Below are positions 51,102 through 57,845 of a DNA stretch of 64,000 nucleotides, piece after piece. Below the pieces are notes generated by a model that was given only the letters and a program-made list of their open reading frames with translations, had not been told where the DNA came from and did no database searches. Numbering within the stretch: the first letter of the stretch is position 1; every line of letters starts with the position of its first letter. Made by a program: the position numbers and the translations under genes. The stretch is from Methylobacter sp. (lineage in GTDB: Bacteria; Pseudomonadota; Gammaproteobacteria; Methylococcales; Methylomonadaceae): assembly GCA_004299305.1 (NCBI GenBank), contig SCPZ01000125.1, positions 1 through 64,000 on the forward strand, given 5' to 3'.

Positions 51102-52088
51102 TTATTCTTCCAGCGTAGCTAAGCGTGCCGCAAGAATTTCTTCTAACGACTCTAACGCTTTGGTAAATCCTTCGATACCTTCTGCAAGTTTTTCAGAAGC
51201 CATACGGTTTTCAGCATGCATACGATCAAAAGTTGCTTTATCAACTGTTATTTGTTCAATTGACTCATTGGCTGCATTTGCAGGATCCAGTTTACGTACC
51301 AATGCACCTTCGGTAGACTGGAGTTCAGCTAACAGAGATGGTGCAATCGTCAATAAATCGCAACCTGCCAATTCTACTATCTCACCCACGTTACGAAAGC
51401 TAGCCCCCATAACTTCGGTTTTATAGCCAAACTTTTTATAGTAGTTGTAGACTTCTGTAACCGACAGTACGCCTGGATCCTCAGCTGGCGCATAGAAATC
51501 ACGACCAGTATCTTTTTTGTACCAATCCAGAATACGGCCAACAAAAGGTGAAATCAGGGTGATTCCGTTTTCGGCGCAGGCGATTGCCTGATGCAAACCA
51601 AATAACAAAGTCAAGTTAGTGTGAATTCCCTCTTTTTCAAGAATGGAAGCAGCCTGGATACCTTCCCAAGTCGCGGCGATTTTGATCAGAACTCGCTCAC
51701 GCGAAACACCTTGTGCTTCGTACATCGCAATCAACTCACGACCTACCCGGACGCTGGCATCGGTATCAAACGAAAGACGAGCATCTACTTCAGTGGAAAC
51801 CCGCCCTGGAATAACTTCAAGTATCTTCCGTCCGAAAGAAACGGCCAAACGTTCAAAAGCAAGGGTAGCCACTTGCGCTGCCGATGCATCTTTACCTAAA
51901 GTCTCTCTAGCACCTTTCAGGGTATCATCGACAATTCCTTGATATTGCGGCATTTGAGCTGCAGCGGTAATCAACGAAGGATTAGTCGTCGCATCACGCG
52001 GCTTGAAAGTTTCAATAGCTTGAATGTCGCCTGTATCAGCTACAACCACGGTCATTTCTCTCAATTGTTCAAGTAACGTCTTGGCCAT
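51102..52088 (-). CDS. tal: Transaldolase
   Basis: A 328-residue transaldolase of the TalB type. It moves a dihydroxyacetone unit between sugar phosphates in the rearrangement phase of the RuMP and pentose phosphate cycles. [13 protein letters not shown] is the N-terminal signature, the Schiff-base Lys is in [12 protein letters not shown], and VDARLSFDT and [11 protein letters not shown] are conserved. It is the last gene of the same-strand RuMP group, 490 bases beyond the GVAKY-repeat gene. Confidence 0.96.
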
Positions 52089-52577: not shown

Positions 52578-53747
52578 CTACACTTTCTCAGGATTTACTC
52601 TGGCAGAAATCATTTGCCTGGTCACATATTTCGAAACTCCGCTTGCCACAGGCAATACAGCCTGTTTTTCCATATATTTGGCAACTCCGCTTATTTTAGG
52701 CATTTTTTTTGCCGCCATCGCCTCTCTTTCCATATACTTTGAGACGCCACTCACGACCGGTGCTTCTTTTACATTTTTCTCCTGCCTTACTATGTACTTT
52801 GCAACGCCGCTCAAAACAGGAGCTTCTTTTCTAGATAAAATTTGTTTTGCCACATACTTAGCAACGCCGCTTACAGGTGGCTTTTCTTTCGCCAAAATTG
52901 CTTGCTCTTCCAGATATCTAGCTACTCCAGTCGCTGCGGCCGCTGCCACAGCCCTTTCCTTTGCTTTTTCCATATCTTTTTCTATTGCCAACTGCTCTTC
53001 TTTTTCTTTTTCTTGTTCTTGCTGTTTTGCAAATATGCGCTGCTCTTCTAAGTATCTGGCAACTATAGCAGCAGCAGCAGCTTTTCTCGTAGCAATAGAC
53101 TCGTCCTCAAGATATTTAGCAACTCCGGTCGCCGCTGCTGTACGCCTAGCTGAGATAGTCTGTTTCATTAAATACTTTGAAACGCTAGTTATAACAGGTG
53201 ACTTCGCTTGATTCTCCACATACTTAGCAACACTGCTGCTTGTGGGTATCTTTTTTACAACGCTGGCATGCTTGGACACATACCTAGCGACGCCGCTTAT
53301 TTTTGGTGCTTTCTTTGCGATTATAGCCTGTCTTGCCATATACTTAGAGACGCTGCTTACAGGAAACTGTTCCAGCTTATCCAAGTATCGGGCAACACTG
53401 CTTGATACTACAACTTCTTTCTGATTTTCGCGGTCCTGATCAACTTCATTTGCTATTAATACTTGCTCACTTTCCAAGTGGACAACACCCCCGCTTACTG
53501 CTGATACCTCCTGACTCACCAAGAAATCAGCGGCTTCATTGGCTACCAATATCTCTTCCAAGTTTTTCAGGTATCTTTCAACTCCGCTCAGCACCGGCAC
53601 AACTTCCTGGCTTTTCAAATATCTTGCCACTCCAGTAAGCCCATCAGGATTACTAACAACATATGCGCGGGGACTGGTTCGAGCCTCAATTTCCCTTTTG
53701 GAGCCAAAAAACCCAGACACTAAATCGATCAAGTAATTTTGACCCAC
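52578..53747 (-). CDS. Soluble GVAKY-repeat protein inside the RuMP cluster
   Basis: A 389-residue protein of unknown function. About 15 copies of a (S/T)(G/S)V(A/S)(K/R)Y(L/V/M)xxQ motif occur near residues 38, 54, 117, 131, 151, 171, 187, 207, 226, 273, 293, 313, 333, 353 and 369. Runs 131-151-171 and 273-293-313-333-353 are exactly 20 residues apart. Linkers are Lys/Ala/Pro-rich (AKKAPKI, RKEAPVL). A charged coiled coil (QQEQEKEKEEQLAIEKDMEK) lies at 242-262, and a degenerate copy near 85. There is no signal peptide or membrane helix, so it should be cytoplasmic. It starts three bases after the gene for a membrane protein with the same motif. A scaffold or tether is inferred. Confidence 0.75.
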   Translation of the reverse strand: MGQNYLIDLVSGFFGSKREIEARTSPRAYVVSNPDGLTGVARYLKSQEVVPVLSGVERYLKNLEEILVANEAADFLVSQEVSAVSGGVVHLESEQVLIANEVDQDRENQKEVVVSSSVARYLDKLEQFPVSSVSKYMARQAIIAKKAPKISGVARYVSKHASVVKKIPTSSSVAKYVENQAKSPVITSVSKYLMKQTISARRTAAATGVAKYLEDESIATRKAAAAAIVARYLEEQRIFAKQQEQEKEKEEQLAIEKDMEKAKERAVAAAAATGVARYLEEQAILAKEKPPVSGVAKYVAKQILSRKEAPVLSGVAKYIVRQEKNVKEAPVVSGVSKYMEREAMAAKKMPKISGVAKYMEKQAVLPVASGVSKYVTRQMISARVNPEKV

Positions 53748-53750
53748 TTA

Positions 53751-54428
53751 TCACCCCCGGTTGCGCATGTACTTTTCAACTCCAGTTCCCGCTTGAGCTG
53801 CTTTTTCTTTTGCAGATCTAGCCTGTTTTTCAAGGTACTTTTCAACTCCACTTGTCGCTGCTGCTTCTTTTGCAGATGCGACCTGACTTTCTAAATATCT
53901 AGCAACACCGGTCGCAGCAGCCATATTGTGCTTTCTCAGATATCGAGCAACCCCAGACAGCCCACTAACATGCCCCGAATAAACAGGAGAATTACTGACC
54001 TTGACTTTTGGCTCGCGCTTACCTAATAAGACATATCCAGCTACAGCAAAAATCGCTAGCCCCAGCAAATAGCCCATCATTGACTCTTCTTCAGCCTTTA
54101 CCTCTGTACTTACCGCTACATCAGCTACTGCCGCTGTAGCCCGCTCAGGGGACGATGTAGCAGCAAACTTACTTGGTTTATAGTCAGCATCCTTGTATAG
54201 AACCTTTGGTTCAAAATCAGCCGCTGGATATCTCGCATCCACCTCAGCCGCTTTCTCCTGTTTAGCCGATACCGTTGCAGGTGCAGACTTGCTTTGGCTA
54301 CTGCTAGTATCTTGATAAATTACTTTGGGTTTGAAATCCGATGCTGGATATTCTGTTTCTGCCCCTACTATGGGACTGGCTAATAACAGCGTAGCAACTA
54401 AACCATTCGTCAAATTATTTATTTTCAC
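53751..54428 (-). CDS. Membrane-anchored GVAKY-repeat protein with YPAADF motifs
   Basis: A 225-residue protein of unknown function. Residues 1-23 form a signal peptide (cut near VGA). Two copies of YPAxDFxPKVxYxD are at 27-40 and 67-80. One transmembrane helix spans about 118-136 (MGYLLGLAIFAVAGYVLLG) and is followed by KREPKVK, so the C-terminus is probably cytoplasmic. Four motifs, SGVARYL (158), TGVARYL (173), SGVEKYL (193) and TGVEKYM (215), make up the tail, matching those of the next gene three bases downstream. The pair looks like a membrane anchor plus a soluble repeat partner. Confidence 0.75.
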   Translation of the reverse strand: MKINNLTNGLVATLLLASPIVGAETEYPASDFKPKVIYQDTSSSQSKSAPATVSAKQEKAAEVDARYPAADFEPKVLYKDADYKPSKFAATSSPERATAAVADVAVSTEVKAEEESMMGYLLGLAIFAVAGYVLLGKREPKVKVSNSPVYSGHVSGLSGVARYLRKHNMAAATGVARYLESQVASAKEAAATSGVEKYLEKQARSAKEKAAQAGTGVEKYMRNRG

Positions 54429-54545: not shown

Positions 54546-56531
54546 TTAAAGTACCGCTTCTACGTTTTCGACAACGTTTTCAACAGTAAAGCCGAAGTGC
54601 TTCATCAATACGCCGCCAGGTGCAGATTCGCCGAAAGTATCAATACCGACAACTGCGCCGTCTAAACCAACATATTTACGCCAAAAATCAGTAATACCCG
54701 CTTCAATCGCAACACGCTTAACACCTGGCGTTAATACGCTGTCTTTATAAGCTTGGTCTTGACGGTCAAATACATTTGTTGATGGCATTGAAACAACACG
54801 CGCTTGAATACCCTTTTCTGCCAAGGCTGCTTGCGATTTTATTGCTAAATCAACTTCTGAACCTGTTGCAATCAGGATAACTTGGGCGCTACCTGCTGCT
54901 TCAGAAATAACATATGCCCCTTTACGGATAGCTGCGATTTGTGCATCAGTACGCGCTATGAAAGGCAAGCCTTGACGACTTAACACCAAGCTTGAAGGCC
55001 CTGTCGTACGTTCAACTGCCATTACCCAGGAAACCGCTGTTTCTGTGGTATCGGCAGGCCGCCAAACATCCATATTCGGAATATAACGCATAGCAGATGT
55101 ATTCTCAATCGGCTGATGCGTTGGACCATCTTCCCCTTGACCAATAGAGTCATGAGTTAAGACGGCAATGGTGCGAATTTTCATTAACGCTGACATACGC
55201 AAAGCACTTTTCGCATAATCAGAGAACATGTGGAATGTTCCGCCGAAAGGCAATAAGCCGCCATGTAACGCCATGCCATTCATAATAGTGTACATACCAA
55301 ACTCGCGCACACCGTAGGAGATGTAATTACCCATCTCTTTACCGCTGACGTGTTTGAAGCTGCTGCAACTAGTTAAGTTAGAACCGGTCAAGTCCGCAGA
55401 ACCGCCTAAAAATTCAGGTAATGTAGGAGCCAATCCACCAATTACTTTTTGTGAAGATTGACGTGTGGCAAGATTTTCTGCCTTCTCGTTGGTTTCGGCA
55501 ATCAATGCATCAGTGGCAGCCTTCCAATTAGCAGGCAATTCACCCGCCATACGGCGTTTGAATTCTGCCGCCAATTCTGGATATTCTGCCGCGTAAGCTG
55601 CAAATTTCGCATCCCAAGCCGCCTCGGCTCTTGCGCCTTTTGCTTTAGCATCCCAGCCTGCATAAACATTATCTGGAATAATAAATGCTTCGTGATCCCA
55701 ACCCAAAGCTGCTTTAGTTAAATTAATTTCAGGTTGACCTAAAGCTGCACCATGACATTCATGAGTACCCGACTTGTTTGGTGATCCAAAACCAATAGTG
55801 GTTTTGCAACAGATCAACGAAGGCATATCCGTCATCGCTTTAGCCATGACAATTGCTTTATTTATCTCTTCTGGATTATGTCCGTCTACTGACAATACAT
55901 GCCAACCATAAGCTTCAAAACGTTTCGCTGTATCATCCGTATACCAGCCTTCAATATGTCCATCAATGGAAATACCGTTATCATCCCAGAAAGCGATTAA
56001 GTTGCCTAAACCCCAAGTACCCGCTAATGCACAGGCTTCATGAGAAATGCCTTCCATCAAACAGCCATCGCCCATGAATACATAGGTATGGTGATCAACG
56101 ATTTTATGGCCTGGACGGTTAAATTGCTCTGCAAGCAGCTTCTCAGCCATCGCAAACCCGACACCATTGGCAATACCTTGCCCTAACGGCCCTGTTGTTG
56201 TTTCAACGCCTGGCGCGTAACCGTATTCAGGATGTCCCGCACATTTTGAATGTAATTGACGGAACGAGGCTAATTCACTCATAGGTAAATCATAGCCACT
56301 CAAATGCAATAGTGAATAAATCAGCATTGATCCGTGACCATTGGAAAGAACAAAACGGTCACGATCTGACCATTTTGGATTGGACGGATTGTGGCGCAGG
56401 TGATCATTCCACAACACCTCGGCAATGTCCGCCATGCCCATAGGTGCGCCTGGATGCCCAGAGTTTGCTTTCTGCACGGCATCCATGCTCAAAGCCCGTA
56501 TGGCGTTCGCTAATTCTCGACGCGAAGTCAT
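54546..56531 (-). CDS. tkt: Transketolase
   Basis: A 661-residue thiamine diphosphate enzyme. It transfers two-carbon units and regenerates ribulose 5-phosphate precursors in the RuMP cycle. [20 protein letters not shown] at the N-terminus, the TPP motif [18 protein letters not shown]...WDDNGIS, and the pyrimidine-domain [17 protein letters not shown] are all present. Full length. It lies downstream of the hexulose phosphate genes and upstream of the GVAKY-repeat pair. Confidence 0.97.
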
Positions 56532-56667: not shown

Positions 56668-57201
56668 CTATTCTAAGTTAGCGTGCCTTTCTCTCATTAC
56701 TTCTTCGGCAATTCCCTTATCATGAATGATGTGAGAAATGGTTGCTTCCAAAAATAACAAAGTAGACAGTTCAAACACAGTTCCCATGGGCATCCCTAAA
56801 ACCTTACCATATTGTTCTGGGTTGCCGATTTGAAATACCGCATCTGCCAAGTCGCCAATTGTTGAGCTGCTTTTCGCAGAAATCAAAACGATGTTAGCAC
56901 CTATCTTTTTTGCGCTTTTAGTGAATGCTATTAACTGCTCAGTCTCTCCTGAACCGGAGATAATGATCAATAAATCACCGTTTTTAATGCTTGGCGTCAC
57001 AATCTCGCCTACGACGCTAACATCGTAACCGCCGTGAACCAGCCTCATGGCAAAAAAATTACCAACAAGCTTGGAACGCCCAGCACCTGCAATAAATACA
57101 CGCTTGGCGTTATCAAGCAATTGTGTCAACTTTACATCATACGAATCATCTGTAGCTTCAAGAACACCTGAAATCTTTTCTATGATCAGTTGCTGATGCA
57201 T
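56668..57201 (-). CDS. hxlB: 6-phospho-3-hexuloisomerase
   Basis: A 177-residue SIS-domain protein. It isomerises hexulose 6-phosphate to fructose 6-phosphate, the second step of formaldehyde fixation. RVFIAGAGRSKLVGNFFAMR, the GYDVSVVGEIVTPSIKNGD segment and IISGSGETEQLIAF match known hexuloisomerases. It begins two bases after the synthase gene, so the two are co-transcribed. Confidence 0.95.
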   Translation of the reverse strand: MHQQLIIEKISGVLEATDDSYDVKLTQLLDNAKRVFIAGAGRSKLVGNFFAMRLVHGGYDVSVVGEIVTPSIKNGDLLIIISGSGETEQLIAFTKSAKKIGANIVLISAKSSSTIGDLADAVFQIGNPEQYGKVLGMPMGTVFELSTLLFLEATISHIIHDKGIAEEVMRERHANLE

Positions 57202-57203
57202 AA

Positions 57204-57845
57204 TTATACCGCGTCAACCAATTCGCGAATTTCACGCGCTGCATCAGCAGGTGAAGCCGCGCCATAGATTGCAGCGCCCACTACGATAATGTTTGCACCT
57301 GCACGAACTACATCTTGAACAGTTGAAGGCTTAATACCGCCGGCAACAGAAATTCTGACGTTTAAGCCCAGTCTTGCGATGTCATTCAAATCAGCGAAAG
57401 GAGTATGACCTGCAGCTTGAGCATCAAGACCTGTGTGAATACCCATGATATGAGCACCCATGTCGGCAGTCGCACGTGCGCATGCAACTTTATCTTCAAC
57501 ATTAATTAAATCGATTTGAGCTTCTGCACCGTATGCATTAGCTGCTTTGATAACGCCTGCGCAAGTTGCAAGGCCAGATACGCCTAAAACTGTACAAATA
57601 TCAGCACCTGCTGCATAGAAAGGTGTCGCTTCGTACTCGCCTGCGTCCATAGTTTTAAGGTCAACTAAAAGCAGTTTCTCTGGAAATCTTGCTCTTAATT
57701 CTTTAACCAGGTTAAGTCCATTATATTTGATGCATGGGGTTCCGATTTCAAAAATATCAACGTAAGGAGCTACTAAGGTAGCAAGGCCTACTGTTTGATC
57801 GAAATCTAATGAATCTAATGCCATTTGTATTAATGGTTTTGCCAT
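57204..57845 (-). CDS. hxlA: 3-hexulose-6-phosphate synthase
   Basis: A 213-residue aldolase of the orotidine decarboxylase-like superfamily. It joins formaldehyde to ribulose 5-phosphate, the key RuMP reaction. KPLIQMALDSLDFDQTVGLA, EIGTPCIKYNGLNLVKELR, VDLKTMDAGEYEATPFYAAG and HTGLDAQAAG are conserved; the KTMDAGE segment holds catalytic Lys, Asp and Glu. The ATG follows CGGAG. It is the first gene of the minus-strand RuMP group and thus marks the strongest promoter. Confidence 0.97.
   Translation of the reverse strand: MAKPLIQMALDSLDFDQTVGLATLVAPYVDIFEIGTPCIKYNGLNLVKELRARFPEKLLLVDLKTMDAGEYEATPFYAAGADICTVLGVSGLATCAGVIKAANAYGAEAQIDLINVEDKVACARATADMGAHIMGIHTGLDAQAAGHTPFADLNDIARLGLNVRISVAGGIKPSTVQDVVRAGANIIVVGAAIYGAASPADAAREIRELVDAV

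Follow-up and report, generated by a model that had tools for sequence, protein, structure and literature searches.

KY-repeat proteins encoded among the RuMP genes of Methylobacter: candidate linkers for clustering a formaldehyde-fixing enzyme at the membrane

Two adjacent genes in the RuMP cluster of a Methylobacter species encode a membrane protein (MemA) and a soluble protein (SolB) that share multiple copies of one short element, here called the KY motif. KY proteins follow RuMP genes in two orders, the Methylococcales and a second order represented by family f10, which judging from gene content is probably Methylophagaceae. From the motif, the architecture of the proteins, their conservation and their tie to RuMP genes, we infer that MemA and SolB may act as multivalent linkers, gathering a RuMP enzyme into clusters at the membrane. 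We give this reading an even chance of being right; the binding, the partner, the clustering and the location in the cell are its predicted parts. RuMP methylotrophs must catch toxic, periplasm-made formaldehyde before it does harm.

The two-gene unit in the RuMP cluster

The window analyzed here is the whole 64,000-nucleotide stretch of contig SCPZ01000125.1 (assembly GCA_004299305.1). On its minus strand the gene order is HPS - HPI - Tkt - MemA - SolB - Tal, with the four enzymes assigned by NCBIfam, all above the cut-off:

57204..57845, minus strand: HPS, constant neighbor and proposed main KY partner (TIGR03128, 244 bits)
56668..57201, minus strand: 6-phospho-3-hexuloisomerase, HPI (TIGR03127, 196 bits)
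54546..56531, minus strand: transketolase, Tkt (TIGR00232, 964 bits)
53751..54428, minus strand: MemA, 225 residues, GTG start
52578..53747, minus strand: SolB, 389 residues, GTG start
51102..52088, minus strand: transaldolase, Tal, last gene of the cluster (TIGR00874, 466 bits)

The first-pass annotation had described two genes between transketolase and transaldolase separated by a 3-base gap, and both open reading frames lie where it had put them, in the same frame. Other Methylobacter loci keep the motif counts, the gene order and the position, and the Tkt proteins of relatives are 59-97% identical to that of the window.

The annotation had also held that nothing known explains the pair, and a library search with MemA and SolB against Pfam, NCBIfam and PDB sequences indeed found no relative. 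A match of U1snRNP70_N to SolB residues 197-254, the charged central helix (27.8 bits, cut-off 23), was put down to composition and rejected, because no KY array of its own lies under it and the snRNP family in question is eukaryotic. The diatom pyrenoid component DPC2 (PF25195) was likewise set aside, having matched a single KY protein (L063) at 17.7 bits and E 0.005, with a cut-off of 70 bits.

Architecture of MemA and SolB

MemA consists of a signal peptide, two YPAxDFxPKVxYxD (YP) units, one transmembrane helix and a predicted cytoplasmic tail with four KY motifs:

54309..54350, minus strand: YP unit 1, YPASDFKPKVIYQD, residues 27-40, predicted periplasmic side
54189..54230, minus strand: YP unit 2, YPAADFEPKVLYKD, residues 67-80
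54024..54086, minus strand: transmembrane helix, residues ~115-135 by hydropathy (helix 111-136 in the AF2 model)
53763..53957, minus strand: KY tail, motifs at residues 159, 174, 194 and 216

Hydropathy peaks at residue 117, and both YP units are N-terminal to this single helix, consistent with the membrane protein and the two extramembrane units originally proposed. Provided that the N-terminus is a signal peptide, the YP units are periplasmic; the signal peptide and the positive residues that follow the membrane helix together suggest a cytosolic tail. The four tail copies, of the form [ST][GS]VxKYL, lie at G159, G174, G194 and G216, the number first reported. The AF2 model of MemA (mean pLDDT 54) is disordered save for the signal helix, the transmembrane helix and three tail helices.

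SolB combines an N-terminal amphipathic stretch, 14 KY motifs and a long central helix; it has no Cys, no Trp and a net charge of +16:

53709..53738, minus strand: short N-terminal helix of the AF2 model, NYLIDLVSGF, residues 4-13, resembling the N-termini of relatives and possibly membrane-seeking
53097..53636, minus strand: first KY block, residues 38-217, eight motifs
52884..53123, minus strand: long central helix, residues 209-288 (80 residues), pLDDT >90 in its middle
52590..52931, minus strand: second KY block, residues 273-386, six motifs spaced 20, 20, 20, 20 and 16

The 14 clear copies are those that fit [GSRA][VI]x[KR][YF], and ten of them obey the strict form GV[AES][KR]Y. Counting in one or two degenerate copies (IVARY around residue 229, GGVVHL around 87) makes the initial figure of about 15 a fair one. 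Successive spacings are 16, 62, 15, 20, 20, 16, 20, 66, 20, 20, 20, 20 and 16; the exact 20-residue period claimed at 131/151/171 and 273/293/313/333/353 is correct, these positions being the S or T before each G or S. Shuffled sequences of the same composition held 0.1 motif on average and at most 2 (2000 shuffles).

The motif is also the conserved part of both proteins. Among 20 MemA sequences the V and Y columns of the motif are invariant in 8 of 8 cases, versus 32 of 210 other columns, and among 19 SolB sequences in 27 of 28, versus 17 of 329. The 586 repeats collected from relatives give the consensus [ST]-[GS]-V-[ASE]-[KR]-Y-[LMV]-x-[KR]-Q, most often spaced by 20 residues and then by 15 and 16, and the linkers between motifs vary in both sequence and length.

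In the AF2 models of both proteins a short helix starts at the motifs and the linkers have low confidence. The helices of SolB (mean pLDDT 61) span residues 40-47, 55-83, 117-127, 132-146, 152-161, 172-182 and 188-206 in the first part and 294-306, 314-325, 334-347, 354-363 and 370-384 in the second, with the motifs at 208 and 274 lying inside the long central helix. Low pLDDT is expected for such chains, so the models support an image of short helices on strings and nothing beyond it.

Distribution and genomic context

A search with MemA gave matches in 51 of 61 relatives, some of these being other YP proteins. KY arrays were sought with a two-repeat profile in samples of the order, the class and the phylum. 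The order sample of 201 genomes had KY arrays in 156 and HPS in 170, and the two agreed in 179 genomes (both in 152, neither in 27). Four genomes had KY only; these are drafts of family f1 in which HPS was probably lost in assembly. The 18 genomes with HPS only (eight f6, nine f4, one f1) make up 18 of the 170 HPS-bearing genomes of the order, so HPS functions without KY. In the five of them that were inspected (G041, G047, G055, G057 and G058), HPS-HPI is separated from both Tkt and Tal, and its surroundings contain no KY gene. Among 369 gammaproteobacterial genomes of the class sample, the six with HPS are the same six that have KY arrays, and among 398 proteobacteria of the phylum sample KY was found in the source genome only. 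Fisher tests of HPS-KY co-occurrence, which ignore shared descent, gave p values near 1e-17 and 3e-13.

Several matches were discarded. Those in G209 and G320 are a single chance motif in an OmpA-family lipoprotein. Bin contamination was assumed for a KY contig (L078) of the f6 genome G052, whose proteins are identical to those of G038 (L067), a genome of a different family, and for contig L141 of the f10 genome G814, which carries a MemA of the Methylococcaceae type. In an HPS tree the f10 sequences form a single clade, and the KY-negative group has support 71/90.

The link to RuMP genes holds at the level of gene neighborhood. Among KY genes in loci of at least 6 kb, 84 of 93 lie no more than 5 kb from a RuMP gene (HPS 73, HPI 73, Tkt 77, Tal 74), some genomes being counted twice in these figures since two collections overlap. 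The repeats are thus not found mostly in unrelated contexts, an outcome that the first-pass annotation had named as evidence against its proposal. The nine exceptions are KY-plus-CxxxC proteins (see below), genes on cut contigs and one extra MemA-like gene.

The composition of the unit varies. Methylococcus-like genomes (L072, L074, L133) have the order Tkt - MemA - HPS - HPI with no SolB, and their MemA has 2-5 motifs. In G032 an HPS-HPI-Tkt-SolB unit occurs twice and is followed by HPS-HPI-Tkt-MemA-Tal, and G024 has a similar, twofold arrangement; KY genes thus accompany the duplicated HPS-HPI-Tkt units, from which Tal is missing. The three HPS-HPI-Tkt copies of G032 (L134) are near-identical and in tandem, with SolB after two of them and MemA after the third. 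RuMP duplication is known in M. capsulatus, a case that the triple unit of G032 recalls (PMC517821).

In family f10, KY matches occur in 45 of 57 genomes. The proteins are soluble, have 65-205 residues and begin with MSEKGFFSSICGLFKGIFSSG or similar, and the contamination-like contig L141 was the one exception to an absence of MemA. All 18 KY loci inspected have the order HPS-KY-Tal, in most cases Tal is followed by another HPS, and Tkt is absent from the unit. Every well-resolved KY unit, whether of the L072 type, of f10 or duplicated, contains HPS, and no other enzyme gene is common to them all. Tkt is variable and missing in f10, and the duplicated units lack Tal, which leaves HPS as the best guess for the partner; gene order makes it the most likely one.

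This distribution bears on how the proteins might work. The original proposal was a homotypic tether joining RuMP enzymes or membranes; its RuMP link and its membrane partner have stood up, and its homotypic part has not, as membrane-only and soluble-only lineages exist. On such a scheme KY helices would pair with each other (SolB with SolB, SolB with MemA) to build a membrane-attached mesh, in which the enzymes are held in some other way or merely enriched. The presence of one motif on both proteins of a two-gene unit fits this, helices that are amphipathic, with V, Y and L along one side, are able to associate, and SolB might form a coiled coil through its long central helix. However, MemA-only lineages and the f10 lineages with short soluble proteins alone (often 2-4 motifs) keep the motif equally clearly, which argues that MemA-SolB pairing is not the general function and that a common third partner is simpler. 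The helices of the SolB model are also unpacked (pTM 0.22), a single-chain AF2 model being a weak test of pairing. We consider homotypic pairing unlikely.

Some KY proteins are quite short, with 65-120 residues and 2-4 motifs, and these raise another explanation. CP12 acts on GAPDH and PRK, and KY peptides could similarly fit into a site of a RuMP enzyme and modulate how active it is or how it assembles, with no cluster being built. The strict gene neighborhood would suit such a regulator or chaperone as well, but such a role does not easily explain chains with 14 to 19 copies or a membrane anchor, and the idea seems to us quite improbable.

Other proteins with KY or YP elements

In many f10 genomes, ChpA-type hybrid CheA kinases of ~1850-2050 residues carry 2-6 KY motifs ([TS][GS]VERY[IL]xxQ) between their HPt domains. 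These proteins have three HPt domains, HATPase, CheW and a receiver. Eleven were inspected, and ORF length suggests that ~20 genomes have one:

KY-bearing ChpA loci of f10: L105, L132:5745-11852, L143, L144, L148, L152, L154, L155, L161, L163, L165

A third KY family, in Methylococcales, has 4-5 KY motifs followed by a conserved C-terminal domain, CxAxTxxGxxCxR...IxRTIxxxxYxFxVCxQH, which is possibly a metal site. Its genes lie away from RuMP genes, and it gave no match in Pfam or NCBIfam:

KY-plus-CxxxC loci: L063:6442-7272, L171:5478-6374, L173:2734-3519, L207:4658-5353

A motif specific purely for HPS would leave both of these families unexplained. Either KY has further partners, or the ChpA and KY-plus-CxxxC proteins are sent to the same place as the RuMP proteins. 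One form of the latter idea is that KY binds a general hub or positioning protein (e.g. a ParA-like protein or polar organizer), which places both RuMP clusters and the ChpA array, with MemA and SolB as cargo adaptors. The ~2000-residue ChpA proteins fit such a hub, and in genus g27 the RuMP KY protein and ChpA use the same YIQ variant. In genus g184, in contrast, the RuMP KY proteins have YIR only and ChpA has mixed variants, so that the joint drift that a common partner should produce is seen only partly. Furthermore, no KY-bearing ChpA was seen in Methylococcales, the source genome having MemA and SolB only, and the HPS-less genomes of that order lack KY, four drafts excepted, which a hub would not predict. 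Docking to a hub is thus, in our judgment, as unlikely as homotypic pairing.

The YP unit also occurs by itself. Secreted proteins of 80-110 residues consist of two YPAxxFxPKVIY units (L060:5427-5669 in the source genome, G000:C41; L084; L086; L099), and in several genera their genes adjoin an ABC transporter of the NMT1/SsuA type; the gene of the source genome has a 6-phosphogluconolactonase-like gene close by. A search by eye for YP genes beside methanol-dehydrogenase genes found none. L096:4815-5729 encodes a signal peptide and an SRPBCC (Polyketide_cyc2) domain to which three YP units are fused; its identification as MxaD was dropped, there being no such NCBIfam match. KY-free MemA-like proteins with a signal, two YP units, a transmembrane helix and an acidic or other tail (L066:1004-1648, L077:6031-6654, L080:6223-6867) occur at a distance from RuMP genes in the families f2 and f6.

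The separate secreted proteins, the KY-free membrane proteins and the SRPBCC fusion would all agree with a MemA whose YP units perform its function in the periplasm, its KY tail being accessory and its RuMP context a matter of operon history. SolB and the f10 proteins lack any YP part, however, and G046 has a mini-MemA with a signal, a transmembrane helix and two KY motifs that is without YP units and still lies between Tkt and Tal. The latter argues that the membrane form is at its core a transmembrane helix plus KY, and we regard an envelope function as very improbable.

A proposed mechanism and its parallels

The preferred reading, multivalent linkage of a RuMP enzyme, can be modeled as follows. 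KY helices would bind the enzyme, most likely HPS. The 14 loosely linked helices of SolB could then cross-link many enzyme oligomers, and the KY tail of MemA would moor the resulting cluster at the inner membrane or an intracytoplasmic one. The cluster would thereby sit where periplasmic methanol dehydrogenase releases formaldehyde, and the toxic product might be caught on entry. In the second order the soluble KY protein would act alone, perhaps via its N-terminal amphipathic helix. An extended version, which we think doubtful, is a membrane-attached, shell-less formaldehyde-fixing body, a KY-held condensate of HPS and its partners that would be the first natural scaffold for formaldehyde assimilation; KY would then serve as an address label of general use, recruiting ChpA as well in Methylophagaceae.

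Scaffolds of this general kind are known from carbon fixation. CsoS2 and CcmM of carboxysomes are repeat-bearing scaffolds that gather the carbon-fixing enzyme and are encoded beside enzyme or shell genes. Unlike these, MemA and SolB match no carboxysome family in Pfam or NCBIfam, and no shell-protein gene was found among the ORFs within ~5 kb of them in the window. EPYC1 and the pyrenoid linkers (CsLinker; Chlamydomonas/Chlorella) are largely disordered chains whose short helices, 20-120 residues apart, bind an oligomeric carbon-fixing enzyme (PMC11570498). SolB has a like layout, with helices at motifs on a loose chain at spacings of 15-20, and of 62-66 between blocks. Its repeats are denser than those of EPYC1, whose enzyme is chloroplast Rubisco, and more helical in the model, so that the largely disordered character is shared in part. 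The comparison is one of working, and homology is not expected. RBMP1 and RBMP2 are transmembrane proteins that carry the Rubisco-binding motif of EPYC1 in a disordered tail, and have been proposed as membrane tethers (PMC9614477). Linkers of the EPYC1 kind with RBMP tethers are marked by numerous weak, identical helices along a flexible chain, by a copy of that helix on a membrane anchor and by tight linkage to the genes of an oligomeric enzyme, and the KY proteins resemble them in this. MemA similarly has a transmembrane helix followed by four motifs in common with its soluble partner, but is a different protein, with a secreted-side YP part and in another membrane than the thylakoid of the RBMPs.

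A review describes engineered Mdh-Hps-Phi complexes that bring formaldehyde to Hps, and its passages on them mention no natural RuMP scaffold (PMC8879981). Those complexes share the aim proposed here, formaldehyde near HPS, but are man-made fusions, unlike MemA and SolB. No earlier description of KY linkers beside formaldehyde-fixing enzymes was found in the open-licence literature, where absence is a weak indication. The KY sequence family looks new, and its proposed way of working is of a known kind.

Implications

In a CRISPRi screen the Methylococcus RuMP operons (MCA3040-45, MCA3046-50) had negative fitness, with the KY gene not singled out (PMC13108547). If the KY scaffold is real, it makes the question of formaldehyde capture directly testable in genetically tractable methanotrophs. 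Synthetic methylotrophy faces the same capture problem, and a natural, gene-linked scaffold would, if true, be a ready part for it. Early work from Quayle's group reportedly found the HPS of M. capsulatus to be particulate and of high mass, in contrast to a soluble dimer elsewhere. A KY tether, if true, would explain this particulate HPS.
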